Of a stretch of DNA of 64,000 bases, positions 260 through 15,281 are shown one piece after another (within the stretch, counting starts at the first letter, position 1; the number at the start of each line of letters is the position of its first letter). Source of the DNA: an uncultured Spirochaetales bacterium (lineage in GTDB: Bacteria; Spirochaetota; Spirochaetia; Sphaerochaetales; Sphaerochaetaceae); assembly GCA_902781545.1 (NCBI GenBank), contig CACZJR010000003.1, positions 1-64,000 of the forward strand, written 5' to 3'. The notes under the pieces are model-generated. The model ran no database searches. It had not been told where the DNA came from and worked only from the letters and a program-made list of their open reading frames with translations. The translations under genes were made by a program, and so were the position numbers.

Positions 260-2488
260 TTATTCCTCACAGGCATCGCCGTTGACGGCTCTGACCCTGT
301 CAACGACAAGCTGCCTGAATTTCTCGCTTAGCATCGCGAAGAATGCTGTGAAACCTGTGACCCTGACCACAAGGTCGGGATACTTGTACGGATCCTTGTG
401 AGCCTCCAGGATCTTCTTGGCATCGATTATGTTGATGTTCAGAAGGGTGTTTCCGCTCTTGAGGATTCCAAGGACCATGGCGCACATCTTGTCCACGCCG
501 TCCGGGTCGTTGGTGATCTGCGGGTCAACCTCAAGCTGCACGGGTGCGGTGTTGCCGTATCCCGGCTGGACCGCTGCGATTGAGTTGCACATGCTGGTCA
601 CCGCTCCGTCCTTGCGGAAGCCGCCGTTGGGGTTTGCTCCGTGGTTGATGGGCTCTCCGGCCTTTCTTCCGTTCGGTGTGGCCTTGAGGATTGATCCCAG
701 AAGGATTGTGTTTGACCATGAGAACAGTCCTGGGATGAAATTCACGTGCTTGGGATTGTCCTTGTGCTGTCTGACAAGGTCCTTCACAAGGTCAGTAAAG
801 AGCTGTGAGATCCTTACCGCCCACTTGTCTCCGAGAGTGTCTCCTCCGCCGTAACGCTCGCTGTGGAGCATCATCTGCCTGACATACTCGCCGTCCTGGT
901 CCTCATAGTTGGCGATCATGTGCTGTGTGAGCTGGTCATAGGTGAGCTTCTGCTCGATGTCTATGCGCTGCTCGCATGCCGCGAAGCTGTCTGCCGCAAC
1001 GGCGATTCCCGCTCCGTCAACGCACATGTTGTAGTAATTGGCGCCGCCGTCCGTGATGTTCACTCCCTTCTCGATCAGACCGTGCTGGAACAGGTTCAGG
1101 ATCAGTTCCGGCTGGCTCTTTGTCTGGTAGGTGAGGTGGTGGATGATTCCGGCACCTGTCGCGTCGACCGCTATCTTGAGGTGCTTCTTGTAATAATCCC
1201 AGAGAGTCTCTGCAGACGGTTTGACAAGTCCGGTGTTCGCCATCATGTCCTGATAGGCGACCTGGAACACCATTGCGAGGTTTACCTTGACGGTGTCGTT
1301 CATCGTGTACTCCATGCCTGGCATGCACATCCAGTGGCATCCTGCGGCAACACGCTTTCTTGCAAGCTCCTTGGAGTAGCCGTTTCTCATGAAGCCCTCG
1401 GTAAGGGCCTTGTCGTTTGAGTATCTTGGCCAGCCCTGCTTGTTCTTGAACAGAAGCTCAACTGACTTGCGGAAGAACACCGGATCCAGCTTGTCATGGA
1501 CCCTGATGGTGAGGTTTGTGGCGATGTTCAGCTTGTCCGCAGCATCAAGTGCGAGATAGCTGAGGTGGCAAGTCTTGTCATTGTCGTTCTCATCCGGTCC
1601 GCCCAGCTGCCAGTAACGGCTGTCCTGGAGGAACATGCAAGCCAGATAGAAGACTGCCTCGTCATCTGTGAGACGGCCCATCTTGATGTCCTTCTCATAG
1701 AACGGATTGAACAGGTCCTCAAGCTGTCCGCCTGCGCTTCCGCGGTTGTAGGTCCTGGAGAGCATGCTGAACCAGTTGCTCCACTGAATGGCCTCTCTGA
1801 AAGTCTTTGGTGGATTTTCTGCTATATTGCGGTCAATCTGAGCCATTGTATGCAGGTTTTCAGACAACTGTTCGTTTCTTTCCTCATTTGCGCAAGCCTC
1901 AATCTCGTCCGCCGCGCGGTAGATGAAGGCTATGATGTTCTTGACCACCTCGATCTCAGCATCGTAGAACTCATGATGGCTCTCATCATGCTTCTCGCGC
2001 TGCTCCTGGAGCTTTGCGAGGATTCCTCCCCAGCCGAGCTCCATTCCGATCTGTAAATCCGGGGTGAAGTGGTGGCAGTTGTCAATTCCGGAGATGACCT
2101 GGTACTTGTCGAATATGGCCTGGAGCTCAGGGTACGGGTAGTCCGGATTCCATTTCTTTGTCTTTGGTCTGAGACGCTCCAGGAACAGGAAGCCCTTTGC
2201 CGAGAATGCATCAAGGGCATCGACATAGATCGGATGTTGCTTCAGGATGGAGCAGTAGTTGAATGTCCAGGCCTTGTAGCCGTAGATGGATCCGTTCGGG
2301 TGGTTGGGCTGGAGCTTGTAGTCGAACTTGTCCTGGACAATCAGGCCGTAGTCGTCCTCGTCGGCTCCGCCGGCCTTTGCCTTCTCCTCGGTCTGAGCGA
2401 CCTTGCGCTTTCTGAGAAGAGCGATTCTCTCGTCATATGTGAATGTCCTGTCTGGCTCGAACTCGTTGATGAATCTTATTTCACTCAT
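260..2488 (-). CDS. Glycyl radical enzyme (pyruvate formate-lyase superfamily), substrate unknown
   Basis: The 742-residue protein has the superfamily hallmarks: a C-terminal glycyl radical loop RVTGFTAFF with the radical Gly near residue 712, the preceding PNGRKAGEP turn (about 605-613), and a Cys loop AAGCHWMCMPG with the likely thiyl residue Cys384. Diol dehydratases and choline lyase carry G-C-V-E here, with Glu as general base; this protein has G-C-H-W instead and a second Cys at 388, so none of the well-known substrates can be assigned. The chosen ATG has GAGGAGG eight bases upstream; a longer reading runs into the activase gene and has no support. Its activase is encoded 10 bases upstream. 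It should be cytoplasmic, strictly anaerobic and oxygen-cleaved at Gly712. Confidence 0.93.
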   Translation of the reverse strand: MSEIRFINEFEPDRTFTYDERIALLRKRKVAQTEEKAKAGGADEDDYGLIVQDKFDYKLQPNHPNGSIYGYKAWTFNYCSILKQHPIYVDALDAFSAKGFLFLERLRPKTKKWNPDYPYPELQAIFDKYQVISGIDNCHHFTPDLQIGMELGWGGILAKLQEQREKHDESHHEFYDAEIEVVKNIIAFIYRAADEIEACANEERNEQLSENLHTMAQIDRNIAENPPKTFREAIQWSNWFSMLSRTYNRGSAGGQLEDLFNPFYEKDIKMGRLTDDEAVFYLACMFLQDSRYWQLGGPDENDNDKTCHLSYLALDAADKLNIATNLTIRVHDKLDPVFFRKSVELLFKNKQGWPRYSNDKALTEGFMRNGYSKELARKRVAAGCHWMCMPGMEYTMNDTVKVNLAMVFQVAYQDMMANTGLVKPSAETLWDYYKKHLKIAVDATGAGIIHHLTYQTKSQPELILNLFQHGLIEKGVNITDGGANYYNMCVDGAGIAVAADSFAACEQRIDIEQKLTYDQLTQHMIANYEDQDGEYVRQMMLHSERYGGGDTLGDKWAVRISQLFTDLVKDLVRQHKDNPKHVNFIPGLFSWSNTILLGSILKATPNGRKAGEPINHGANPNGGFRKDGAVTSMCNSIAAVQPGYGNTAPVQLEVDPQITNDPDGVDKMCAMVLGILKSGNTLLNINIIDAKKILEAHKDPYKYPDLVVRVTGFTAFFAMLSEKFRQLVVDRVRAVNGDACEE

Positions 2489-2498
2489 GTCTGCCTCC

Positions 2499-3404
2499 TC
2501 AGCTGATCTTGATCCGGACTCCGGAGCCCTCAAGCTCCTTCCTGATCTCGTCAAGGTCCTTCCTGGAATACGGTCTTGCATCCTCGAACGGGTCATCCGC
2601 AGCCATGGCCACACGCTTTGAGGACCCCAGCGGGTTGTAGTTCAGAAGCTCATAGCACTCTATGTTCTGGAGCTTTGCCACGAACTCGGCTATCTGCTTC
2701 AGGTTGCTGATGTCGTTTGTAGCTCCCGGAATGAGCGGGGTGCGCACTATCATGGGAATTCCGAGAAGGGATGCGCGGCCGACGTTGTTGAAGATTATCT
2801 GGTTGTCCATGCCGGTGTACTTCTTGTGAGTGGGGGAGTCCACATGCTTGATGTCGCACATGATCAGGTCCATCTTCTTCAGCATCACGTACATCTTCTG
2901 CCAAGGAAGGGCCATGTTGGTCTCGCACGCGATCTTTATTCCTTTCTCATGACAGGCATCAGCCAGCTCACTGATGAATGATGCATGAAGGGAGGACTCT
3001 CCGCCGGAGACTGTCACACCGCCGCCGGAAAGGTCGTAGTAGAGCTTGTCCTGGACAACCTCGGCCATGACCTCTTCTACCGTGTAAGGCCGTGATGACA
3101 TGACAAGGGCCGATGCCTGGCAGTTCTCTGCAAGGACCTCCGGGTTCTTGAGCTTCTTCCTGTCAATCACATGGGCGCCGCCCTCTATGCGGTTCGCCTC
3201 AGGCGGATCACTCAGGCTGAAGCATCTGCCGCAGCCGATACATTTGTTCTGATAATGCATCAGAACGGGTTTCATGGAGATGGTCTCCGGATTATGGCAC
3301 CATGTGCAGTGCATGTTGCAACCCTGGAAGAACACTGTGGACCTTATTCCCGGACCGTCATTCAGGGAGAACCTCTGGATATTTGTAATGAGAGCCTGTT
3401 TCAC
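2499..3404 (-). CDS. Glycyl radical enzyme activase (radical SAM)
   Basis: This 301-residue protein installs the glycyl radical on its partner using S-adenosylmethionine and a [4Fe-4S] cluster. The radical SAM motif C29-x3-C33-x2-C36 lies in GCNMHCTWCHNPE, after the family opening FSLNDGPGIRSTVFF. A short ferredoxin-like insert carries CIGCGRC (C55, C58, C61) and a distant Cys95, enough for one extra cluster, whereas many activases of the PflA2/BssD type carry two. The start is a GTG with GAGG five bases upstream. It is the first gene of the minus-strand operon, followed at once by the enzyme gene, so the pair is matched. Confidence 0.93.
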   Translation of the reverse strand: MKQALITNIQRFSLNDGPGIRSTVFFQGCNMHCTWCHNPETISMKPVLMHYQNKCIGCGRCFSLSDPPEANRIEGGAHVIDRKKLKNPEVLAENCQASALVMSSRPYTVEEVMAEVVQDKLYYDLSGGGVTVSGGESSLHASFISELADACHEKGIKIACETNMALPWQKMYVMLKKMDLIMCDIKHVDSPTHKKYTGMDNQIIFNNVGRASLLGIPMIVRTPLIPGATNDISNLKQIAEFVAKLQNIECYELLNYNPLGSSKRVAMAADDPFEDARPYSRKDLDEIRKELEGSGVRIKIS

Positions 3405-3481: not shown

Positions 3482-3494
3482 ACAATACAAAAAA
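3482..3494 (-). promoter_or_regulatory. Shared promoter motif, glycyl radical enzyme operon side
   Basis: Read on the minus strand this is TTTTTTGTATTGT. The same 13 bases occur on the plus strand at 4786-4798 ahead of dctP. Here a TAATAC box follows 16 bases after TATTGT, so the motif may be a T-rich upstream element plus -35 region. It sits about 80 bases before the activase start. Whether it is simply a promoter or an operator for the neighbouring regulator cannot be told from sequence. Confidence 0.35.
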
Positions 3495-3597: not shown

Positions 3598-4746
3598 ATG
3601 CAGATGGACGACAGGACAATACACCTGATAGTTGAGCCGAACTACATCACGCCCTTCTGGTATGCCCGGAGCATAGAGGGCCTTGAGGAGGCCGCGTCAA
3701 GGCATAAGCAGGAAGTTAAACGGCTGTCCTCAATAGATGAGCTTACCGTTCCGGCCAATGTCATAGTGGTGATAGGGACCACTAAATCATGGATCAGGGA
3801 TACCCTGGATGCCGCAAGGGCCAGGAACCTCAGGTCTATCCTTATCGGTACAGTCCCGTCCAAATACGGAGAGGATGTCTCCGGAACCATGTACGGAAGC
3901 CACTCCGCAATTGAGGAGATAGTCTATTACTTCTATCATTACGGGCACAGGAAAATGGCGCTTGTGGACATCAACGGTGCATCGACCAACGACGCCATGA
4001 AGGTTGAGAGCTTTCTCAGCACCGCCAAGAAGCTCGGGCTCCCCACATCCTACAATGATGTCTATTTCCGTAATGCGGGAGCACAGAACGGGGATGAGAA
4101 ATTCCTGATATCGATACGCTCTTATGATGCCGTAGTTTGCTCGAACGATTATTCTGCGGCATTCATCCTCAAGTATGCGGAGGATCACGGCATAAAGGTC
4201 CCTGACGAGCTTTTCGTGGCCGGCCTGGGTGACACGACTCTCTGCAGGTACACCAATCCTTCACTGACATCTGCCACAAGAAGCTATTATGAGTCCGGTG
4301 AGAACGCATACGACCTCTGGCGCACGCTGACAAGGAATCCCAATGTTGAGTCCATTGTCACGACAATGCGGAGCTCGCTCAAACCCCGCGGAAGCACGGG
4401 TTTCCTGCCGTGTGTCCCTGTGGAGATCAATTCGTCCTCATTGCACGAGGATCATGCGGAGATTGACGAGAACACTCTCAGGAAAGGTGCGGACTCCCTC
4501 AAATCCATCCAGGAATGCCTGTCGGAATGCGATGCAGTTGACATGTCCATAATCGCAGGGGTGCTGAACAATGTGAGCAATGAGCGTCTTGCCGAGGAGC
4601 TGTCCATGTCAACCGGAACCATCAACTACAGGCTCAAGAAACTGTACAAGAACGCCGGTGTCACAACCAAGAACGAGTTCTCCGAACTGATCCGCAGCTC
4701 CATATCAGTAGATACTTTACTTAAGGACACAAAGCATCTGGACTGA
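3598..4746 (+). CDS. LacI-like sensor domain fused to a C-terminal LuxR-type HTH regulator
   Basis: Residues 1 to about 280 read as a periplasmic-binding-protein type 3 sensor of the LacI family (DALVCSND-like segment AVVCSNDYSAA, then VPDELFVAGLGDT and the TNPSLTS segment), which normally binds a sugar or related effector. LacI proteins carry their HTH at the N-terminus; here it is absent and the last 68 residues instead form a GerE/LuxR-like HTH (NERLAEELSMSTGTINYRLK). The start ATG follows GAGGAGGGG. The gene lies between the divergent glycyl radical enzyme operon and the TRAP operon and is the obvious candidate regulator of both. Effector and operator are unknown. Confidence 0.8.
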   Translation: MQMDDRTIHLIVEPNYITPFWYARSIEGLEEAASRHKQEVKRLSSIDELTVPANVIVVIGTTKSWIRDTLDAARARNLRSILIGTVPSKYGEDVSGTMYGSHSAIEEIVYYFYHYGHRKMALVDINGASTNDAMKVESFLSTAKKLGLPTSYNDVYFRNAGAQNGDEKFLISIRSYDAVVCSNDYSAAFILKYAEDHGIKVPDELFVAGLGDTTLCRYTNPSLTSATRSYYESGENAYDLWRTLTRNPNVESIVTTMRSSLKPRGSTGFLPCVPVEINSSSLHEDHAEIDENTLRKGADSLKSIQECLSECDAVDMSIIAGVLNNVSNERLAEELSMSTGTINYRLKKLYKNAGVTTKNEFSELIRSSISVDTLLKDTKHLD

Positions 4747-4785: not shown

Positions 4786-4798
4786 TTTTTTGTATTGT
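4786..4798 (+). promoter_or_regulatory. Shared promoter motif, TRAP transporter side
   Basis: TTTTTTGTATTGT, identical to the minus-strand motif at 3482-3494. A TTATCC box follows 18 bases after TATTGT, giving a plausible but weak promoter about 90 bases before dctP. The matching copies upstream of the two divergent operons suggest common control. Confidence 0.35.
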
Positions 4799-4888: not shown

Positions 4889-5908
4889 ATGAAAAAGGTT
4901 ATTGTTGTACTTCTTGCCCTCATTCTGGCAAGCAGCATGATTTTTGCACAGTCCGCATCTGAGACACCTGCGGCTGGTGCAAGAACACAGAAACTGGTTC
5001 TCACATTCCCTGAGATCAACGCTGATTCTGACCTTGCATGCAAGTTCCTGGTCAGGTTCGCAGACACAGTCAAGCAGAAGACCAACGGAATGATTGAGAT
5101 CAACGTCTTCGGAAGCGGCCAGCTCGGAACAGAGGCTGAGTGTATCGAAGGTCTGAGACTCGGAACATATGCATTCTTCAGAATCAACCCTGCAAACCTC
5201 AAGAACAGAGGAGTCGACATTCCTGAGTACACAGCTCTGGGACTTCCGTTCCTGCTTCAGAGCATCAAGGGCGGACTTGACTTCCTGTACAGCGATTCAG
5301 GAAGAAAGCTCGGAGACAAGGTATTCGAGGCATCAAACGGAGAGATCAGGTCACTTTACAACTACATCTGCACACCGGCAAGAAACATGTTCACAAAGAC
5401 ACAGTGCACATCTCTTGCAGACTTCAAGAAACTGAAGATCAGATCCGAAACATCAGACATCAAGATCGACATGATCAACTGCTGGGCAAGTGCAACACCG
5501 CTTGCAATGTCAGAGATCTACACATCACTCTCAACAGGTGTCCTGGACGGATGCGAGAACACACTCTCCGGACTCAGGAACAACAACTGGTATGAGCAGG
5601 TCAAGTATGTCTATGAGACAGAGCACGTAATCGGAACATCAGTCATCCTGGTATCAGAGAAGGTCTGGCAGCAGCTCACAGCTGAAGAGCAGAAGATCGT
5701 CTCAGAGGCAATGAAGGAGGCCTGTGACTGGTTCCAGGTCGAGACCGAGAAGCAGATCTCAGAGAACAAGGCATTCCTGACAGAGAAGGGAGTTGTCTTC
5801 ACACCTTGTACAGACAAGCAGGCATGGATCGATGCATGTGCACCTCTCTATGCAAAGTACGCTGCTGGCGTCCAGGATTTCATCAAGGAGATCCAGAGCT
5901 ACAAGTAA
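4889..5908 (+). CDS. dctP: TRAP transporter substrate-binding protein DctP
   Basis: This 339-residue periplasmic solute receptor starts with a signal peptide (MKKVIVVLLALILASSMIFA, then QSASE). DctP features follow: the FGSGQLGTEAECIEGLRLG segment near residues 73-92, the KLKIRSE strand around 190 with the conserved carboxylate-binding Arg, and the LSTGVLDGCENT segment. Family members bind organic acids, sugar acids or similar anions through that Arg; the ligand here is unknown. A good GGAGGA precedes the ATG. Codon use is strongly skewed (Thr almost always ACA, Lys AAG), unlike its neighbours and typical of a highly expressed gene. It heads the dctPQM operon. Confidence 0.93.
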   Translation: MKKVIVVLLALILASSMIFAQSASETPAAGARTQKLVLTFPEINADSDLACKFLVRFADTVKQKTNGMIEINVFGSGQLGTEAECIEGLRLGTYAFFRINPANLKNRGVDIPEYTALGLPFLLQSIKGGLDFLYSDSGRKLGDKVFEASNGEIRSLYNYICTPARNMFTKTQCTSLADFKKLKIRSETSDIKIDMINCWASATPLAMSEIYTSLSTGVLDGCENTLSGLRNNNWYEQVKYVYETEHVIGTSVILVSEKVWQQLTAEEQKIVSEAMKEACDWFQVETEKQISENKAFLTEKGVVFTPCTDKQAWIDACAPLYAKYAAGVQDFIKEIQSYK

Positions 5909-5996: not shown

Positions 5997-6506
5997 ATGA
6001 CAGACAAGATTAAGAAAATCCTTTTCAAGATTGCAAACTGGATCTGTCTGGTTGCAATGGTCGTGATAGTGGTAGTGCTTCTGATAGTCGTCATCGGAAG
6101 GTATTTCTTCAACTACACGCCATCATGGTCTGAGGAAACAGCACTGTTCATGCTCACGTGGGTGGGACTTTTCAGTGCAAGCATCGCAGAGTACCATGGC
6201 TCGCATGTCCGTGTGCAGTTCATAGACACTGTGTTTCCCCCGAAGGTCCTCAGGGTGTTAGGCATTATCCGATGGTTCCTGAAGGTCGCCTTCTTCTCTT
6301 TGATGATTTTCTATGGCGTGAAGATCTTTGCCACAACAAAGCAGAGGTTCGGAGCCATTAACCTATCATACAGGTGGCAGGTCCTGCCTGGCTTGTTCAC
6401 CGGCATCTTCTGTCTTGTTTTCACTCTGCTCAACGCCAAGACCGTGTTCACTGACAAACATGAGAGGGATGTTGAGAAGGATCTGGAGGAACTGATCAAT
6501 GGCTAA
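5997..6506 (+). CDS. dctQ: TRAP transporter small membrane subunit DctQ
   Basis: The 169-residue protein has the four membrane segments of DctQ (about residues 14-36, 50-68, 88-108 and 129-148) and the family segment NYTPSWSEETALFMLTWV after helix 1. It joins the large subunit DctM in the inner membrane to form the Na+- or proton-driven importer fed by DctP. It overlaps dctM by 8 bases, which implies translational coupling. Confidence 0.92.
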   Translation: MTDKIKKILFKIANWICLVAMVVIVVVLLIVVIGRYFFNYTPSWSEETALFMLTWVGLFSASIAEYHGSHVRVQFIDTVFPPKVLRVLGIIRWFLKVAFFSLMIFYGVKIFATTKQRFGAINLSYRWQVLPGLFTGIFCLVFTLLNAKTVFTDKHERDVEKDLEELING

Positions 6507-7797
6507 CATGACATTGGGTGTCTGGGTCCTTGTCGGATCCTTTGTGCTTATGCTCGTCATGGGTGTGGAGATCTCCTACACCCTCGGGCTCTCAGCGGTC
6601 TTCACATGTCTGGTGATGAAGATCAACCTCCTGGTTGTCTTCCAGACTATCTTCTACAAGATGGCGAACTACTCGCTGCTTGCCGTGCCTTGCTTCATGC
6701 TCATGGGCGAGTTCATGAGCATAGGAACAATGGCGGACAACATAGAGGAGCTTGCCAGGGTCCTTGTCGGCTGGATGCCGGGCGGACTTGCAATGGTCAA
6801 CGTCGTTGACTCGATGTTCTTCGGAGGAGTCTCCGGATCATCAGTCGCGGACGTCTCATCCCTGGGACCGATCATCATCAAGCTGATGACAGACTCCGGA
6901 TATGACAAGGACTTCTCAGTCGCACTGACCTGTACGTCGGCAATACAGGGAATAATAATACCGCCGAGCCATAACCTGGTCATCTATGCGGTCACTGCCG
7001 GAGGTGTGTCCATCTCCGCCCTGTACATGGGCGGATATCTCTCCGGCATTGTCCTTGGGCTCTGTCTCGCGGTCTACTGCTTCTACGTCTCAAAGAAGCG
7101 CCACTATCCTGTGGACAAGGCTTTCTCCATGAAGAGGATGCTGCATGCTCTCTGGATATCGCTTCCGACCATCCTCTGTATGGTGATTGTCGTAGGAGGA
7201 GTCCTGCTCGGATGGATGACCGCAACCGAATCGGCTGCCGCGGCCTGTGTCTTCTGCTTCATCTGGACATTCCTGATTGAGAGGAAGGGAACCTGGAAGG
7301 ACCTGTACGGTGCGTTCACAAGGACCGCGAAGACAATAGGATCTGTTCTGATACTTGCCGCATGCGCCACTGCGTTCAGCTGGGTCCTGACATATCTGAG
7401 GATCCCGCAGATGGTAACAAACGGCCTGTTCGCAATCACTGAGAACAAGATCGTCATGCTCCTGATCATCAACGTGATCCTGCTTATCATGGGATGCTTC
7501 ATGAACATGGTCTCCATCGTGTACATCATGACACCGATCCTGCTTCCGATAGTCCAGAGACTGGGGATGCATCCGGTCCAGTTCGGAATAATGATGATCC
7601 TGAATCTCGGAATAGGACTTCTCACACCGCCTGTCGGCCAGGTCCTGTTCGTGGGATGCTCTGTCGGAGACATCTCGATGGAGAAGCTCACCAAGGCCCT
7701 GCTGCCGCAGATGGCGTTCATGGTCCTTGCCCTGGTGCTTGTGACGTTCGTCCCGGCCATCACGATGTGGCTGCCGCACCTTGCAGGCTATGTTTGA
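6499..7797 (+). CDS. dctM: TRAP transporter large membrane subunit DctM
   Basis: At 432 residues this is the usual length for DctM, with about a dozen hydrophobic segments. The family blocks are visible: PCFMLMGEFM near residue 70, FGGVSGSSVADVSSLG about 110-125, IIPPSHNLVIYA about 152-163, and LLTPPVGQVLFVG about 372-384. It forms the transport channel with DctQ. The gene is coupled to dctQ and followed 21 bases later by an isomerase-like gene, so the imported substrate is probably handled by the enzymes just downstream. Confidence 0.95.
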   Translation: MANMTLGVWVLVGSFVLMLVMGVEISYTLGLSAVFTCLVMKINLLVVFQTIFYKMANYSLLAVPCFMLMGEFMSIGTMADNIEELARVLVGWMPGGLAMVNVVDSMFFGGVSGSSVADVSSLGPIIIKLMTDSGYDKDFSVALTCTSAIQGIIIPPSHNLVIYAVTAGGVSISALYMGGYLSGIVLGLCLAVYCFYVSKKRHYPVDKAFSMKRMLHALWISLPTILCMVIVVGGVLLGWMTATESAAAACVFCFIWTFLIERKGTWKDLYGAFTRTAKTIGSVLILAACATAFSWVLTYLRIPQMVTNGLFAITENKIVMLLIINVILLIMGCFMNMVSIVYIMTPILLPIVQRLGMHPVQFGIMMILNLGIGLLTPPVGQVLFVGCSVGDISMEKLTKALLPQMAFMVLALVLVTFVPAITMWLPHLAGYV

Positions 7798-7818: not shown

Positions 7819-8616
7819 ATGAGATTTGGAATGTGCACGGACATTGCCACCGCAACACGTGACCGTGTCGAGTATGCTCTTCTGGAGCGTATCAAGGAGG
7901 CAGGATTCGACTATGTCGAGTTCCCGCTCATGATGATTGACACCCTCTCAGATGAGGATTTCGAGTATCTGCTCTCAGAGCTCAAGCGCCTGGACCTGGC
8001 CTGCGACTGCAGCTGCAACTACTTTCCGGGCCGCATCAAGGTCACCGGACTCACCAGAGACAAGAAGGAGATCGATGCCTACCTGGACCATGCCATGGGC
8101 AGGGCAAAGAGGATGGGTGTGAAGAAGATTGTCTTCGGAAGCAACAACTCCCGAAATCTTCCTGAGGGTGAGAGCCTTGAGCAGGGTTATGACGAGCTCT
8201 GCCAGACAATTCACGAGTCAGTTGTCCCGTACTGCCAGAAATACGGCATCCACGTAGTGATGGAGCCCATCCGCAAGCAGTCAGGCAACATCCTGATCAC
8301 CGTCAAGGACGGATGGTATGTCGTAAACCGTGTCCACAGGCCGGAGGTTGTGCTTCTGGCTGACCTGATGCACATGATGTACAACGAGGAGAACGCCGAG
8401 GATCTCAGGGAGATCTATCCTCTACTGCACCATGTCCATGTCTGTGAGATGGACAGGCTGATTCCGGAGGACGGCTTCAGCCCGTTCCTGACAAAGGCGC
8501 TCGGAATCCTCAAGGAGCTCGGATATGACGAGACGATCTCCTTCGAGAGCAAGGGCGGAAAGGGACCTGACAGCATGAAGAAGGCCCTGGCCCAGATAAA
8601 AGAATTCTTCAAATAA
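7819..8616 (+). CDS. Sugar phosphate isomerase/epimerase family TIM barrel
   Basis: The 265-residue protein belongs to the xylose-isomerase-like / AP-endonuclease family 2 barrels. Likely metal ligands are Glu in VVMEPIR, Asp in VLLADLMHM, His in HHVHVCEMD and Glu in TISFESKGG, in the order expected for this fold. Members epimerise or isomerise sugars, inositols or hydroxyacids; the substrate cannot be read from sequence. The gene lies between dctM and a Gfo/Idh/MocA dehydrogenase, the usual companion for such barrels in sugar or polyol catabolism. GGAGG precedes the start. Confidence 0.8.
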   Translation: MRFGMCTDIATATRDRVEYALLERIKEAGFDYVEFPLMMIDTLSDEDFEYLLSELKRLDLACDCSCNYFPGRIKVTGLTRDKKEIDAYLDHAMGRAKRMGVKKIVFGSNNSRNLPEGESLEQGYDELCQTIHESVVPYCQKYGIHVVMEPIRKQSGNILITVKDGWYVVNRVHRPEVVLLADLMHMMYNEENAEDLREIYPLLHHVHVCEMDRLIPEDGFSPFLTKALGILKELGYDETISFESKGGKGPDSMKKALAQIKEFFK

Positions 8617-8630
8617 ACAAGGAGCATATC

Positions 8631-9698
8631 ATGGCAAGAATCAAAACAGCTATCATCGGTTGCGGAAAGAACGCAAATGAGCTTCATACCCCGATTCTCC
8701 TCAGACATCCTGAGTTCGAGGTCGTGGGAACATATGACATTGTCTTTGACAGAGCTGAGAAGCTCGCGAAGGTCTTCTATCTGAACGGCCACAAGAACTG
8801 CAAGGCCTACAACACACGTGAAGAGCTCCTTGCCTCTGATGTCGAGTACTGTCTTGTCCTGACGAACAGCCACATGCACACCGAGGTCGCTGCCGCATGT
8901 CTGCGTGCAGGCAAGAACGTCCTGATCACCAAACCATGGGCAAAGGACAGCAAGGATGCGGCTTTCATCATTGAGGAGGCAAAGAAGGCAAAGGCAAAGT
9001 TCGGCGTGCACCTAATGCCGTTCCTGCCGCAGAACTGGGGAACAGACCTGGCCGCTGTCAAGGAGTACATGAGAAACGGTGAGATCGGTGAGGTCTATGA
9101 GATCCGCAGGCGCGCTGCCACATTCGGAAAGAGATACGACTGGCAGATCTGGAAGGACCAGGCCGGCGGATACCTGAACAACTGGGGACCGCATCTTCTT
9201 GGACAGCTGCTTGCCGCGGTTGACGAGCCGATCGTCAAGGTCTGCGCAGAGAAGAAGCAGGTCATCATGGACGGAGACTGTGAGGACACCTTCATCGCCA
9301 ACATGAAGACCCAGAGCGGAATAATCCTCAACTGTGAGCACTGCATCATGGTTGACAAGCTGCCGCACTGGATAGTTCAGGGAAGCAAGGGAACGATCTT
9401 CATCACCGACGGAACAATCGATGTCCATAAGATCAGCTATCCGGGACCGATCGATCCGACTGCCTACAGGTCAAAGACCAATGATGACAACACCACAGGT
9501 CCGCTTCCTGGAGCCTACAACGGTGACCGCTATGCCATCTACACACACATCGCAGATGTCATCCGCGGAAAGTGCGAGTATCTGGTGCCGCTCACATTCA
9601 CAAGGAATCTGACCACCGTCTGTGACGCCATCCACAAGAGTGCCGACACGGATGAGATCGTCAGGATCTCGCCGGAGGAGTGGAACAGGCCGCTCTGA
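8631..9698 (+). CDS. Gfo/Idh/MocA family NAD(P)-dependent oxidoreductase
   Basis: The 355-residue protein has an N-terminal Rossmann fold (AIIGCGKNANELHTPIL, residues about 7-23) and the family's catalytic-lysine turn, here TKPWAKDSKDA instead of the common EKP. A C-terminal alpha/beta domain carries NNWGPHLLGQLL with the conserved His. Such enzymes oxidise a sugar or polyol hydroxyl or reduce the ketone. It is 14 bases behind the first isomerase-like gene and before a terminator-like hairpin, so it ends the first transcriptional block of the TRAP operon. Confidence 0.88.
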   Translation: MARIKTAIIGCGKNANELHTPILLRHPEFEVVGTYDIVFDRAEKLAKVFYLNGHKNCKAYNTREELLASDVEYCLVLTNSHMHTEVAAACLRAGKNVLITKPWAKDSKDAAFIIEEAKKAKAKFGVHLMPFLPQNWGTDLAAVKEYMRNGEIGEVYEIRRRAATFGKRYDWQIWKDQAGGYLNNWGPHLLGQLLAAVDEPIVKVCAEKKQVIMDGDCEDTFIANMKTQSGIILNCEHCIMVDKLPHWIVQGSKGTIFITDGTIDVHKISYPGPIDPTAYRSKTNDDNTTGPLPGAYNGDRYAIYTHIADVIRGKCEYLVPLTFTRNLTTVCDAIHKSADTDEIVRISPEEWNRPL

Positions 9699-9732
9699 TG
9701 CATTGATGTCCCAATAAGTGAGCTTTATGCGA

Positions 9733-9772
9733 GAAAAGGCCATCATGCGTCAGTATGGTGGCCTTTTCTTTC
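9733..9772 (+). terminator. Rho-independent terminator after the Gfo/Idh/MocA gene
   Basis: GAAAAGGCCATCAT pairs with ATGGTGGCCTTTTC (one wobble) around an 8-base loop, and the 3' arm is itself T-rich (CTTTTCTTTC). The next gene starts 18 bases on in the same direction, so termination may be partial. Confidence 0.75.
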
Positions 9773-9789
9773 ATCTGATGGAGTGAGCA

Positions 9790-10608
9790 ATGATCATTAG
9801 CTGTTTTTCCGATGAGATCGACCCCTCGCTGGATATCCAGATAAGGGTGATCAGAGAACTTGGACTGAGGCATCTAGAGATCAGGACCATGGATGACGTC
9901 AATGTGATGGACCTGCCGCCCTCAAAGCTTAGGGAGATCAGGCGCAGGACTGATTCGGAAGGTCTGACAATCACATGCGTTTCCTCTCCTGTTGGAAAGG
10001 AGTATGTCTCATGCTCCAGAGCCTCCATCCTGGGCAAGGTGAAAGACGCCTGTGACAGGGCCCATGAGTTCGGATGCCCCTATGTGAGGGTCTTCTCATT
10101 TTATCCCGGTGACATGAACAGGACAGAGGCACTTCCTTATGCCGTAGAGCATCTGAAGGCGATGGCCGAGCAGGCCGGGAAGGAAGGCATCGTCCTTGTG
10201 ATGGAGGGCGGGGAGAAGACAATCGGGGCACACGGGTCATTCTCCAGGAGAATCCTTGAGGAGGTCGCAAGTCCTCATCTTCGCTGCGCATTTGACCCTG
10301 CGGCGTTTGTTGCGGAGGGCGATGACCCCATGAGGGACTGTTATCCCGTCCTGAAAGATTATATTGAGTATGTTCATATCAAGGATGCGTGTTATGATGA
10401 TGAGGAGCGGTATGCTGCAGGCGAGGGCCAGGGCGGAATTCCTGAGCTTCTTGACTCTCTCCGAAAACGGGAGGACCTGATTATCTCCCTTGAGCCTCAT
10501 CTGTCCTATGCGGGCAGGATGAGGGGTTTCTCGGGAATAGAGCCCTTCAGACATGCACACAAGGCTCTGACGGACATACTTAAAGGCCTTGGGATATCCT
10601 ACAGGTAG
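9790..10608 (+). CDS. Second sugar phosphate isomerase/epimerase family TIM barrel
   Basis: At 272 residues this is another xylose-isomerase-like barrel, only distantly similar to the one at 7819. Putative metal ligands are Glu in LVMEGGE, Asp in CAFDPAAF, His in YVHIKDA and Glu in ISLEPHLS, matching the family pattern. It begins 18 bases after the terminator hairpin and ends 10 bases before larA, suggesting it belongs with the racemase/Etf block. Substrate unknown. Confidence 0.8.
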   Translation: MIISCFSDEIDPSLDIQIRVIRELGLRHLEIRTMDDVNVMDLPPSKLREIRRRTDSEGLTITCVSSPVGKEYVSCSRASILGKVKDACDRAHEFGCPYVRVFSFYPGDMNRTEALPYAVEHLKAMAEQAGKEGIVLVMEGGEKTIGAHGSFSRRILEEVASPHLRCAFDPAAFVAEGDDPMRDCYPVLKDYIEYVHIKDACYDDEERYAAGEGQGGIPELLDSLRKREDLIISLEPHLSYAGRMRGFSGIEPFRHAHKALTDILKGLGISYR

Positions 10609-10618
10609 GAGGATTCAA

Positions 10619-11887
10619 ATGAGACTTTCTTTTCCGTTCGGCCACGAGGAGCAGTTTCTCGATGTCCCGGATTCCTCTCTGAGAGGGGTCCTGCGCTCAG
10701 GCATCAACGGCTATGAGCCTGAAGGAGACCCTGACTTCCTGGTGAGGAAAGCCCTTGAGAATCCCATTGGATCCAATAGGCTGTGCGAGCTTTCCTCCGG
10801 CAAGAAGAAGGTCGTGATCATATGCAGCGACCATACCAGGCCTGTTCCAAGCAAGGTGATAATTCCCCATATGCTTAGTGAAATCCGCAAGGGAAATCCT
10901 GATGCGGACATAACGCTTCTGATCAGCACCGGCTGCCATAGGCCCACCACCAGGGCCGAACTTGAGTCCAAGTTCGGAAAAGAGATCGTTGATTCCGAGC
11001 GGATCGTGATCCATGACTGTGACAACTCGCCGATGGTGAACCTCGGCAGATTGCCCAGCGGAGGGGAGCTGATAGTCAACGAGCTTGTGACCTCTGCAGA
11101 CCTTGTCTGCTCGGAAGGCTTCATTGAGCCTCATTTCTTCGCGGGCTTCTCAGGCGGAAGGAAATCGGTTCTCCCGGGCATTGCATCCAGGATCACCGTG
11201 ATGGCGAACCACTGCTCCGAGTTCATAAACGATCCCCACTCAAGGACTGGAATACTTGAGGGCAACAACATACACAAGGACATGGTCTGGGCCGCAAGGC
11301 GTGCAGGACTTGCCTTTATCTGCAATGTGGTGATCAACGCCGAGAAGAAGGTGATCTATGCCGTATCCGGTGATGTGGAGAAGGCCCATGAAAAGGGCTG
11401 TGCCTTCCTTTCCAAGCTCTGCGCGGTGAAGGCACTTCCCGCTGACGTTGCGATCTCCACGAACGGAGGCTACCCGCTTGACCAGAACATCTACCAGTCA
11501 GTCAAGGGAATGACCGCAGCAGAGGCCACAGTCAGGCAAGGCGGAGTGATAATCATGGTCGCCTCATGCAATGACGGTCATGGAGGAGAGTCGTTCTTCA
11601 GGCAGATATCAGATGCGTCAAGCCTTGAGAAGGCGATGGACCAGATCCTTGCAAGAGGCAGGAATGAGACAATCCCGGACCAGTGGGAGGCACAGATACT
11701 GCTGAGGATCCTGATGAAGGCCAGGGTGATCCTTGTATCGCAGGCTCCGGATGAGATGATCAAGGCCATGCATATGATACCGGCACACGATATCAAGTCT
11801 GCCATGGACATGGCACGTGATATAATTGGCAGGACAGATGTCTCTGTCACTGCAATACCTGACGGTGTGTCCGTCATGGTTGTATGA
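10619..11887 (+). CDS. larA: LarA-type nickel-pincer racemase/epimerase (lactate racemase family)
   Basis: The 422-residue protein matches the LarA (DUF2088) layout: SDHTRPVP, STGCHRPT with His107, and EPHFFAGFSGGRKS with His172 and Lys182. These correspond in order and spacing to the two catalytic histidines and the lysine that bears the nickel pincer cofactor in lactate racemase. Family members act on many 2-hydroxyacids, so lactate is likely from context but not proven. The start has TAGGAGG eight bases upstream; a longer reading extends into the preceding gene. The cofactor genes larB, larC and larE are not in the window. It is followed by etfB, etfA and a lactate-dehydrogenase-like gene, the order of parts known from acetogen lactate operons. 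Confidence 0.87.
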   Translation: MRLSFPFGHEEQFLDVPDSSLRGVLRSGINGYEPEGDPDFLVRKALENPIGSNRLCELSSGKKKVVIICSDHTRPVPSKVIIPHMLSEIRKGNPDADITLLISTGCHRPTTRAELESKFGKEIVDSERIVIHDCDNSPMVNLGRLPSGGELIVNELVTSADLVCSEGFIEPHFFAGFSGGRKSVLPGIASRITVMANHCSEFINDPHSRTGILEGNNIHKDMVWAARRAGLAFICNVVINAEKKVIYAVSGDVEKAHEKGCAFLSKLCAVKALPADVAISTNGGYPLDQNIYQSVKGMTAAEATVRQGGVIIMVASCNDGHGGESFFRQISDASSLEKAMDQILARGRNETIPDQWEAQILLRILMKARVILVSQAPDEMIKAMHMIPAHDIKSAMDMARDIIGRTDVSVTAIPDGVSVMVV

Positions 11888-11906
11888 GAGAAAAGGAGGA
11901 AACCGG

Positions 11907-12695
11907 ATGAACATACTGGTATGCGTTAAGCAGGTTCCGGGTTCTAGTAACGTGCAGGTTGATGAGAAGACCGGTCTTCTCATAAGGCCCAAGAAGGGTA
12001 ATAAACTCAACCCTTATGACCTTTATGCCATTGAGGCGTCGCTTGAGCTCCGCGAGAAGACAGGCGGGGCTGTCAAGATACTGACAATGGGACCGCCGCA
12101 GGCGGCAGAGGCCCTGGAGGAATGTCTTTGGATGGGCTGTGATGAGGGCTTTCTCATCACTGACAGGGCATTCGGAGGCGCTGATGTGCTTGCCACCAGC
12201 TACACTATTAGCCAGGGAATCCGAAGGACCGGCTCGGTTGACCTGATTGTCTGCGGCAAGCAGACTACGGACGGAGACACCGCCCAGGTAGGAGCGGAGA
12301 CCGCAGAGCATCTGGGAATCCCTCATCTCTCAAATGTCACCAAGATCCTGTCTGTTGATAAGGGGTGGGTCACGGTGGAGGCCAACCAGGAGAACATGAT
12401 TGTCAAGGAGAGTCTCAGGATGCCGTGTCTTATCTGCATGGACAGCGAGATCAACACCCCGAGGCTTCCGTCCTACAGGCGCAAGAAGGCATTGGACGGC
12501 AGTCTGATCCATTCACTGACACTCAATGACCTTGAGGACAAGGACAGCACCCATTACGGGCTTAAAGGCTCTCCGACACAGGTACAGAAGGTGTTCCCTC
12601 CTGAGAAGAGCACATCAAGGGTCATGGTCGAGGGTTCTTCTGAAGAACTGGCGCAGAAGCTCAATGATCTTCTCGCAGACAGGAAATTCATCTGA
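11907..12695 (+). CDS. etfB: Electron transfer flavoprotein beta subunit (lactate dehydrogenase-linked type)
   Basis: The 262-residue protein opens with the EtfB signature MNILVCVKQVPGS and contains LNPYDLYAIEASLEL and DLIVCGKQTTDGDTAQVG, the segments that in bifurcating Etfs bind the second flavin. It pairs with the EtfA encoded 13 bases downstream. AAAGGAGG precedes the ATG. Together with the next two genes it corresponds to LctB of the acetogen LctBCD complex, which moves lactate electrons to NAD+ at the cost of reduced ferredoxin. Confidence 0.9.
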   Translation: MNILVCVKQVPGSSNVQVDEKTGLLIRPKKGNKLNPYDLYAIEASLELREKTGGAVKILTMGPPQAAEALEECLWMGCDEGFLITDRAFGGADVLATSYTISQGIRRTGSVDLIVCGKQTTDGDTAQVGAETAEHLGIPHLSNVTKILSVDKGWVTVEANQENMIVKESLRMPCLICMDSEINTPRLPSYRRKKALDGSLIHSLTLNDLEDKDSTHYGLKGSPTQVQKVFPPEKSTSRVMVEGSSEELAQKLNDLLADRKFI

Positions 12696-12708
12696 CGGGA
12701 GGCTTTGA

Positions 12709-13893
12709 ATGGGACTTGTTATTCATAAGGAAGTTGTTACAAAAGAGCTCGGTGAAAAGCTGAAGTCAATCTGTCCGTTCGGAGCCATCTCTTATGATGA
12801 GAAGGACGGTCTGTCCATAGGAATGGGCTGTAAGCTCTGCAAGCTCTGCGTCAAGAAGGGAGATGGGGCAGTCACATTCGAGGAGGAGCAGGCACCGAAG
12901 GTGGACAAGAGCAAGTGGAACGGTGTCCTGGTCTTCTGCGAGCATTTCCATGGCAAGATACATAACGTGACATTCGAGCTCCTGGGAAAGGCCAGGGAGC
13001 TTGCCGCCGTCAACGGCCACAAGGTTCTGGCCCTGATGATAGGATCAGATATCAAGGGTAAGGCCAGGGAGCTTTTCTGCTATGGCGCAGATGAGGTCTA
13101 TGTCTATGATGACCCGGGGCTGAAGGACTTCCTGATCGAGCCTTACACCAATGTGTTCTACTCGTTCATCCAGGACATTAAGCCGTCATCGATTCTTGTG
13201 GGAGCCACGAATGTGGGCCGCTCCCTGGCTCCTCGTGTGGCCGCCAGGCTCAAGACGGGACTTACAGCGGACTGCACGTCATTGGAGATGACTAAGGACA
13301 CTGACCTGGTTCAGATCCGTCCGGCATTCGGCGGAAACATCATGGCAAGGATCATGACCCCGAACCACAGACCGCAGTTCTGCACTGTCAGATATAAGAT
13401 CTTCTCAAAGCCTGAGAGAGTCGAATGCGACAAGAGTCCGACCATCATGGAAGTGACGCCCAAGATGCTTGTCTCAAACGCAAAGCTTCTTGATGTCGAG
13501 ATGAAGCCTGAGGATGTTGACATATCCGAGGCAGAGGTCATTGTCCAGTGCGGACGTGGCGTGAAGAGCAAGACGGACCTTGCGATGGTGCAGGAGCTTG
13601 CAGACCTTCTGGGCGCCAGGATGGCATGCACAAGGCCTCTTGTGGAGAACAACTGGTTTGACGCAAAGCATCAGATAGGTCTTTCCGGAAGGACTGTCAA
13701 ACCTAAGCTCCTTATCTGCGTGGGAGTCTCAGGTGCGGTGCAGACGGTAGCCGGAATGAAGGGCAGTGACCTGATAATTGCAATAAACAGTGACCCTCAG
13801 GCACCGATTTTCGATGTGGCCAATTATGGATTCGTGGGAGACCTCTATGAGATCATCCCCCGTCTGACCAAGATGATTAGGGAGGCAAGATGA
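12709..13893 (+). CDS. etfA: Electron transfer flavoprotein alpha subunit with N-terminal ferredoxin domain
   Basis: The 394-residue protein is longer than ordinary EtfA because residues 1 to about 65 form a small ferredoxin-like domain with Cys22 (CPFGAI) and Cys41, Cys44, Cys47 (CKLCKLC), enough for one [4Fe-4S] cluster. The rest is EtfA, with the C-terminal FAD site [26 protein letters not shown] and [17 protein letters not shown]. An EtfA with an added Fe-S domain is what the LctC subunit of electron-confurcating lactate dehydrogenase has. It overlaps the next gene by 4 bases. Confidence 0.9.
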
Positions 13894-15281
13894 TGTTCAA
13901 CAAGCTAACCAGAGAAGATTTCCAGAAACTCGAGTCCATGCTTCCCGGACGTGTGCTGGACGGAAAATCAATCAATGAGGACTACTATCACGATGAGCTC
14001 GGAACCGCATTCGGGGTTCCGGAGGTCCTTGTTAAGGTCCTCTCCACTGAGGATGTCGCCTCTGTGATGAAGCTCGCCTATGAGCGTAACATCCCTGTGG
14101 TTGTCAGAGGCTCCGGAACAGGTTTGGTCGGAGGTGCAGTCGCGATCAACGGCGGCATAATGCTTGACACCTCTGCCATGAAGAAGGTCATTGAGCTTGA
14201 TGAGAACAACCTGACCGTGACCGTCCAGAGCGGATTGCTTCTGATGGAGCTTGCCGCCTATTGTGACGAGCACGGCTATCAGTACTGTCCTGACCCCGGT
14301 GAGAAGAGCGCCACCATAGGAGGCAACATCTCAACCAATGCGGGCGGCATGAGGGCCGTGAAATACGGGGTGACCCGTGATGCAGTCAGGGCCATAACCG
14401 CAGTCCTTCCAACCGGTGAGATAATGAGGTTCGGCAGCAAGGTGGTCAAGAACTCAAGCGGCTATGACCTGAAGGACCTGATCATCGGAAGCGAGGGAAC
14501 ACTGGCAGTAGTCACTGAGGCCACTCTTAAGATAATCCCCAAGCCTGAGTACGCCATCAGCATCCTTGTACCGTTCAGCAGCATGAAAGATGCCATCTCC
14601 ACCGTCCCCAAGGTCATCAGGGCACAGGTCACCCCTGTTGCTGTTGAGTACATGAGCCAGGATGTCATCCTCTTTGCCGAGGAGTACCTTGGCAAGAAGT
14701 TCCCCACGCATGCATCGGACGCATATCTTCTTCTGACATTCGACGGCAACACACGTGAGGCCGTGATGCATGACATGGAGACAATCGCCGACCTCTGCCT
14801 TGAGAACGATGCCCTGGATGTGTTCATGATTGACACGGATGAGCGCTCAGCCTCGGTCTGGTCGGCAAGAGGAGCCTTCCTTGAGGCAATCAAGGGCTCG
14901 ACGGACCAGATGGATGAGTGTGATGTGGTTGTCCCCAGAAGCAAGGTGGCTGACTTCATCCTTTACACCCATCAGGTGGCAAAGGAGGTGGGGCTGAGGA
15001 TCCCGAGCTTCGGTCATGCTGGAGACGGAAACCTCCACATCTACCTCTGCAGGGACGGTCTGGAGGAGAAGGAGTGGGAGAGCCGTAAGGACAGGGCGTT
15101 CAAGCTCATGTATGACAGGGCAAAGGAGATCGGAGGCCTTGTCAGCGGAGAGCACGGAATTGGCCTGGACAAGAGGCCGTACCTCCTGAACATGCTCGGA
15201 GAGAGACAGCTTGAGCTCATGAGGGGCATCAAGAACGTGTTTGACCCCAAAGGCATCCTGAATCCGGGCAAGGTCGTCTGA
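13890..15281 (+). CDS. FAD-linked 2-hydroxyacid (D-lactate/glycolate) dehydrogenase, LctD/GlcD type
   Basis: The 463-residue protein has an N-terminal FAD-binding type 4 (PCMH) domain with [15 protein letters not shown] (about residues 70-84) and a C-terminal FAD-oxidase domain with [12 protein letters not shown] and [12 protein letters not shown]. The family oxidises D-lactate, glycolate or related 2-hydroxyacids. Because it directly follows etfB and etfA (overlapping ATG, with GGGAGG upstream) it is most likely the dehydrogenase of a confurcating complex. An alternative start is the next ATG three bases later. The racemase in the same operon would supply the correct enantiomer. Confidence 0.88.

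Follow-up and report, generated by a model that had tools for sequence, protein, structure and literature searches.

We identified a conserved and, by every test made on its sequence, undescribed subfamily of the oxygen-sensitive glycyl radical enzymes (GREs), here called CxW GREs, through a gene in a 64,000-nucleotide stretch of DNA from an uncultured Spirochaetales bacterium (the window). The GRE gene lies at 260-2488 on the minus strand (coding 263-2488 plus stop), and its translated reading frame of 742 aa carries Cys384-His385-Trp386-Met387-Cys388 as Cys loop and RVTG(712)F as glycyl loop. A sequence-only reading of this DNA had claimed a GCHW loop in which the thiyl Cys384 is followed by His-Trp, and this is what we observed. 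A C-terminal RVXG[FWY] motif with the catalytic Gly is the fingerprint of the GRE superfamily (PMC11528403); it is present in the window GRE and is invariant in the clade save for a conservative V/I change. Pfam matched the protein to PFL-like (295 bits) and Gly_radical (45 bits), and with the PFL-like match a ribonucleotide-reductase-type reading was set aside. A search of the assembled genome revealed the window GRE as its only PFL-like gene.

Compared with the homologue in locus L032, the window GRE shows a dN of 0.081 and a dS of 1.08 (dN/dS ~0.075), and is thus under strong purifying selection. Because the GCHW loop also occurs in at least 10 loci from three phyla, it is not a chance feature. 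The absence of the Glu found in the CXE motif of other GREs, together with a related reading frame that carries an internal stop (G636), could be read as signs of a non-catalytic or decaying GRE relative. We find this hardly credible, as the catalytic Cys and Gly are invariant, an activase gene is adjacent, dN/dS is low and the gene has been retained over the long term in several phyla. Instead, the product is almost certainly an active GRE with its own activase.

The predicted activase, a radical SAM GRE-activating enzyme of 301 aa (2499-3404, minus strand), was recognised by TIGR02494 (281 bits, above the cut-off of 174) and by alignment. It is encoded directly upstream of the GRE, with a gap of 10 bp to the GRE start, and carries a CX3CX2C SAM cluster and an Fe-S insert cut down to CX2CX2C plus one distant Cys. 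The reduced insert pointed out earlier is therefore real in the window, as it is in L032, but it is lineage-specific: the insert is fuller in L033, L035, L039 and L044, and the activases of the Kiritimatiellia members L098 and L101 lack it.

Next to the catalytic Cys, the CxW GREs depart from other GREs. The CXE motif is a conserved feature of GRE eliminases, and its Glu is needed, as the IslA E470Q and HypD E436Q variants are inactive (PMC8473560, PMC7077986). The motif is absent from the window GRE, which has Cys-His-Trp in its place. In the alignment, Cys384 coincided with a Cys in 30/30 other GREs. The residue at Cys+2 was Trp in all 14 family rows, whereas the 30 other GREs had Glu (24), Ser (three, all PFLs), Asp (two) or Val (one). 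At Cys+1, His characterises the window's subclade (GCHW) and Asn the GCNW sequences. The second Cys at 388, also highlighted in the sequence-only reading, is present in the window GRE but is replaced by Ser or Ala elsewhere in the wider clade; a PFL-like Cys pair formed through it was ruled out because of this variability. The adjacent Cys-Cys pair of pyruvate formate-lyase is likewise absent, the window GRE having Gly383-Cys384.

Further positions distinguish the clade. Arg245 is a clade-specific invariant, and other such invariants include Asp289, Tyr292, Gln294, Glu393 and Asp398. Arg249 is also clade-invariant, in a column where 11/30 other GREs have His. His140, which never varies, shares an alignment column with the GHxxxD-motif His; we take His140 to be the equivalent of glycerol dehydratase His164. 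This His is the point of likeness to the glycerol/1,2-propanediol dehydratases, from which the window GRE differs in its Trp for the CXE Glu, in having Arg249 in the aligned His column and in a shorter segment before the GG motif, where CxW GREs lack ~20-25 residues relative to canonical GREs. The placing of Trp386, Arg245 and Arg249 comes from sequence alignment to very divergent enzymes, and an AlphaFold2 model of the GRE, for which the eight closest sequences were allowed, reached a mean pLDDT of 58, and most of its Cys and Gly regions fell below 50.

We then compared the window GRE with known families. Against the NCBIfam equivalog models for HypD, CutC, HpsG/HpfG, HPAD, IAD and PFL it scored at most 209 bits, with cut-offs of ~1000; for the eliminase equivalogs (diol dehydratase, CutC, HypD, IslA and HpsG type), the same ceiling of 209 bits compares with cut-offs of 994-1150. 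The broad PFL2-3 model gave 243 bits against a cut-off of 678. For ten other GREs, the same model gave 553-960 bits in nine cases, seven of them above the cut-off, and the tenth, L057 of another divergent branch, had no match at the 1e-120 limit. In a maximum likelihood tree of 45 rows (quick search, SH-aLRT support only, several long-branch rows unsure), the GC[HN]W sequences formed one clade with an SH-aLRT of 100 and a stem of 1.45 changes per site. In the same tree, this CxW clade was separate from PFL, CutC, PflD and YbiW, and a GCQW sequence was its sister with a support of 99.

The shared fold family and glycyl loop might suggest that the window GRE is simply a divergent representative of one of the known eliminase classes (diol dehydratase, CutC, HypD or HpsG). 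With scores this far below the equivalog cut-offs, no CXE Glu and a separate clade, we consider this very improbable. The best match among solved structures was E. coli PflD, a probable dehydratase (PDB 8yjo; 183 bits over residues 148-731), followed by CutC. The Cys and Gly loops of PflD align with those of the window GRE, but its Cys loop reads GCVELSIPG as opposed to GCHWMCMPG, and the function of PflD is unknown. CutC, the choline trimethylamine-lyase, shares the GRE fold, the Cys-to-Gly radical relay and an adjacent activase, but has CXE, and the window GRE reached 170 bits against the CutC cut-off of 1050; microcompartment or choline genes were not found in the loci examined. HypD belongs to the same GRE family, but the window GRE scored 184 bits against its cut-off of 1100 and lacks its essential Glu436. 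IslA, the isethionate sulfite-lyase, is a GRE that uses arginines in its active site for an anion (R189 and R678; PMC8473560), but it has CXE and its substrate, isethionate, is not a sugar.

Across profiles, solved structures and tree, no characterised or structurally solved GRE grouped with the window GRE, and the GCHW and GCNW members found were all uncharacterised. Clustering with a characterised enzyme that shares the GCHW loop, named earlier as the outcome that would speak against a new class, thus did not occur. The proposal of a possible undescribed substrate class is supported, and Trp in place of the CXE Glu is clade-invariant; a new substrate is what we predict. We found nothing relevant in the open-access literature that connects GREs with Kiritimatiellia, with mannan or sugar acids, or with TRAP import; a description elsewhere is possible.

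The CxW clade spans four phyla of gut and marine bacteria. The GCHW subclade (66-98% identical) was found in MAGs of Spirochaetales/Sphaerochaetaceae, Clostridia and Kiritimatiellia, many of which derive from the ruminant gut. The GCNW relatives (44-53% identical) come from Clostridia, Sphaerochaetaceae and Kiritimatiellia, and from plasmids of two marine Bacteroidota, Flammeovirga kamogawensis and Persicobacter psychrovividus. When 393 genomes were drawn evenly from the window's phylum, the only match at E 1e-60 was in the window's own genome, and we therefore regard the family as rare in that phylum. A scan of viral contigs for deeper sequences turned up a single partial GRE of canonical type and nothing from the family.

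Other unusual GREs were also observed. GCQW Cys-loop GREs (L009, and L043 at 8577-10883), sister to the CxW clade, have as neighbours a gene for a UroD-family methyltransferase-like protein and two regulators of the LacI type. Another distant group, with an RVWGW or RIWGW glycyl loop and an ACWE Cys loop (L057/L115, L014, L018, L020, L025, L119), is common in these spirochaetes and Kiritimatiellia. A plasmid of Peptoclostridium acidaminophilum (L126, 3527-5896) encodes a GRE with a GCVV Cys loop, which lacks the CXE Glu and groups with CutC in the tree. In the Kiritimatiellia genomes G577, G615 and G608, a first-look search turned up as many as 12-14 candidate GREs each, which suggests a large GRE expansion there.

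The gene neighbourhood links the window GRE to carbohydrate enzymes. GCHW loci share the activase, the GRE, a bicupin and a ManA-like isomerase, the last with a conserved QxHP motif, 85 bits against the ManA cut-off of 116 and a match to PDB 1qwr. The bicupin family is present in 10 GCHW loci and matched no Pfam or PDB family; in the window, the contig end cuts the gene, leaving its start at 1-237 on the minus strand (ATG at 237, GGAGG ribosome site), and the 81-aa fragment is 94% identical to the L032 bicupin. A small cupin follows the Bacteroidota GREs and is also found in the spirochaete locus L033. After the shared GCHW genes, L035, L039 and L040 carry a TIM-barrel gene (TIM1) and then a Gfo/Idh dehydrogenase gene, and in L044 this pair directly follows the bicupin, so that it accompanies the GCHW operon in Clostridia and one spirochaete. 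In the window, both genes are located in a divergent TRAP operon instead of the GRE operon: TIM1, an AP_endonuc_2 isomerase/epimerase of the IolO/psicose-epimerase-like type by Pfam, NCBIfam and PDB matches, at 7819-8616, and the Gfo/Idh/MocA-type dehydrogenase, by Pfam, at 8631-9698, both on the plus strand. Their homologues in the GRE operons of L035, L039, L040 and L044 are 42-47% (TIM1) and 45-46% (Gfo/Idh) identical. The neighbours named in the sequence-only reading, namely TRAP DctPQM, two AP_endonuc_2 barrels, the Gfo/Idh dehydrogenase and the truncated cupin, are all real.

Other genes nearby have a less certain place in the pathway. The second AP_endonuc_2 barrel (9790-10608, plus strand; Pfam) is absent from the other loci seen, and its pathway link is uncertain. 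A LarA-type nickel lactate racemase (10589-11887; NF033504, 613 bits, above the cut-off of 460) and tightly spaced genes for EtfB, EtfA and a GlcD-type FAD dehydrogenase (11907-15281; GlcD by profile, EtfB and EtfA by sequence) form a set (10589-15281) on the plus strand, as the TRAP operon does, and resemble lactate racemisation coupled to Etf-linked lactate oxidation. A role for this set in the pathway, with lactate as the product, was left uncertain: these genomes commonly carry LarA paralogues, and the set was seen in no other independent GRE locus examined. We discounted NagB: it was seen near three loci, at a distance and inconsistently. In one Clostridia locus (L094, 8527-18052), two consecutive activase-GRE pairs are accompanied by a GH88 protein, an FGGY kinase and a PMI-like isomerase.

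Between the two divergent operons lies a regulator gene (3598-4746, plus strand) encoding a sugar-binding-protein-like (Peripla_BP_3) domain, by Pfam, and a C-terminal HTH; it is found beside the GRE in six loci. The usual LacI HTH is N-terminal, and the C-terminal arrangement is kept beside spirochaete GCHW loci and one other. The aligned activase/regulator gaps of relatives have a common word, CAATACAAA followed by A. The window carries a putative operator, the 13-mer ACAATACAAAAAA, in this gap (3482-3494, plus strand), and a second exact copy upstream of dctP (4786-4798, minus strand). Two exact copies in the window compare with 0.01 expected when one mismatch is allowed, and 0/100 shuffles had two; the 13-mer was chosen after the alignment, which makes its rarity at the first site partly circular, while the dctP site was not used in the choice. 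The assembled 2.2 Mb genome contains the same two exact copies and no more. Both sites are present in the near relative L038, CAATACAAA is found at both places in L045 of another genus, and the first site is present in L032 and L033. Because ACAATACAAAAAA precedes both operons, occurs only twice in the genome and is conserved in relatives, the shared putative operator supports placing importer and GRE in one regulon. In L033 (708, minus strand), ACAATACAAAAAA is followed ~20 bp on by TTTTTTGTATTC, the two together forming an inverted repeat that may represent the full operator.

The importer also offers a clue to the substrate. It consists of the TRAP solute-binding protein DctP (4889-5908), the small membrane subunit DctQ (5997-6506; recognised by its length and by lying between DctP and DctM, with a 96% identical copy in L038) and the large membrane subunit DctM (6499-7797; 97% identical copy in L038), all on the plus strand. 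Two Arg and one Asn are conserved in glucuronate-binding TRAP proteins, with 4n15 as the template for one (PMC7660916). R165, R185 and N224 of DctP align with this Arg-Arg-Asn triad of hexuronate binders. The best PDB matches of DctP were 4n8y and 4n15/4n17, and the other top matches are presumably hexuronate binders too. DctP is thus a predicted hexuronate-type TRAP binder by its ligand residues. A sialic-acid pathway, which we considered in view of AGE, TRAP and a NanA-like protein in L041, was rejected: SiaP gave DctP a lower score than 4n8y/4n15 did, and the NanA-like gene occurs in one locus only. TIM1 has Thermotoga maritima TM0416 (IolO) as its closest solved relative and only PDB match at E 1e-8 or better (40 bits); its best NCBIfam model is IolO, 5-keto-L-gluconate epimerase, but at 59 bits it falls well under the family cut-off of 300. 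The genome also encodes the canonical uronate isomerase UxaC, so that plain glucuronate or galacturonate would not need a GRE pathway.

Deeper relatives point to a broader range of sugars. The GRE cluster of Flammeovirga contains GH92, a sulfatase, GH130 and GH47, that of Persicobacter GH47 and a GH130-like protein, and in L042 a GH38 gene directly follows the GRE. An AGE epimerase lies beside Kiritimatiellia members, and L032 has an IolG-like Gfo/Idh. Such alpha-mannan and other carbohydrate genes tie the wider clade to carbohydrate breakdown, not to one agreed substrate. Together with the ManA-like isomerase, they would also suit a carbohydrate substrate that is a neutral mannose-configured sugar, polyol or inositol, not a sugar acid. 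The two invariant clade-specific arginines of the GRE and the carboxylate-binding Arg of the TRAP importer in the window's regulon argue against this, and we consider it rather unlikely. As transporters (TRAP, AEC-type Mem_trans, SSS) and neighbouring enzymes vary among loci, the substrate may differ between subclades or not be an acid. We conclude that the window GRE probably acts on a carbohydrate, and that for the window's subclade a hexuronate-like acid is an evenly balanced prospect.

Activase action, the Gly-to-Cys radical relay and hydrogen abstraction are established GRE biochemistry. From the observed gene content, clade, residue pattern and shared motif, we infer a substrate, a reaction and residue roles as follows. 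The neighbouring activase would install a radical on Gly712, which would move to Cys384, and the resulting thiyl radical would abstract a hydrogen from the carbohydrate substrate. This substrate would be a TRAP-imported hexuronate-like sugar acid, or a ketose or aldose form into which the isomerases and dehydrogenase of its regulon convert it. C-O cleavage (dehydration) beside the radical carbon would follow, with His140, at the diol-dehydratase His place, protonating the leaving group. Trp386 would take the position of the CXE Glu, normally the base, and pack against the sugar, and Arg245 and Arg249 would hold the substrate carboxylate, although they could bind phosphate or sulfate instead. 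We propose this complete scheme, dehydration without the CXE Glu of an imported hexuronate-like acid or its isomerase- or dehydrogenase-made form, tentatively. The more general reading, a GRE subfamily dispensing with the CXE base and using a Trp/Arg-lined pocket to convert, by radical chemistry, a substrate that is hexuronate-like or otherwise derived from a hexose, falls just short of an even chance.

Dehydration as the reaction type is plausible, if a little under evenly poised. Loss of a Glu needed by GRE eliminases (PMC8473560, PMC7077986) would also fit an enzyme that decarboxylates its sugar or sugar acid, cleaves a C-C bond in it or epimerises it, radical reactions that need not involve the CXE base; PFL, a C-C cleaving GRE, also lacks this Glu. 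Retention of His140 at the diol-dehydratase His place, and nearest solved relatives that are mostly eliminases, speak for dehydration, and we regard another reaction as unlikely.

If the proposal is true, it would add a new substrate class and a new active-site chemistry to the GRE superfamily, in CxW GREs that occur across four phyla, among anaerobes and polysaccharide degraders of gut and sea. An invariant Trp in a widespread natural clade offers a clear test of whether the CXE base is needed. The clade also suggests that an unrecognised anaerobic route exists in rumen, hindgut and sea, by which sugar acids or sugars derived from mannan would be used. It comes with a compact set of genes and sites: activase and GRE, the bicupin, the ManA-like and TIM-barrel isomerases, the dehydrogenase, the importer, the regulator and the putative operator.
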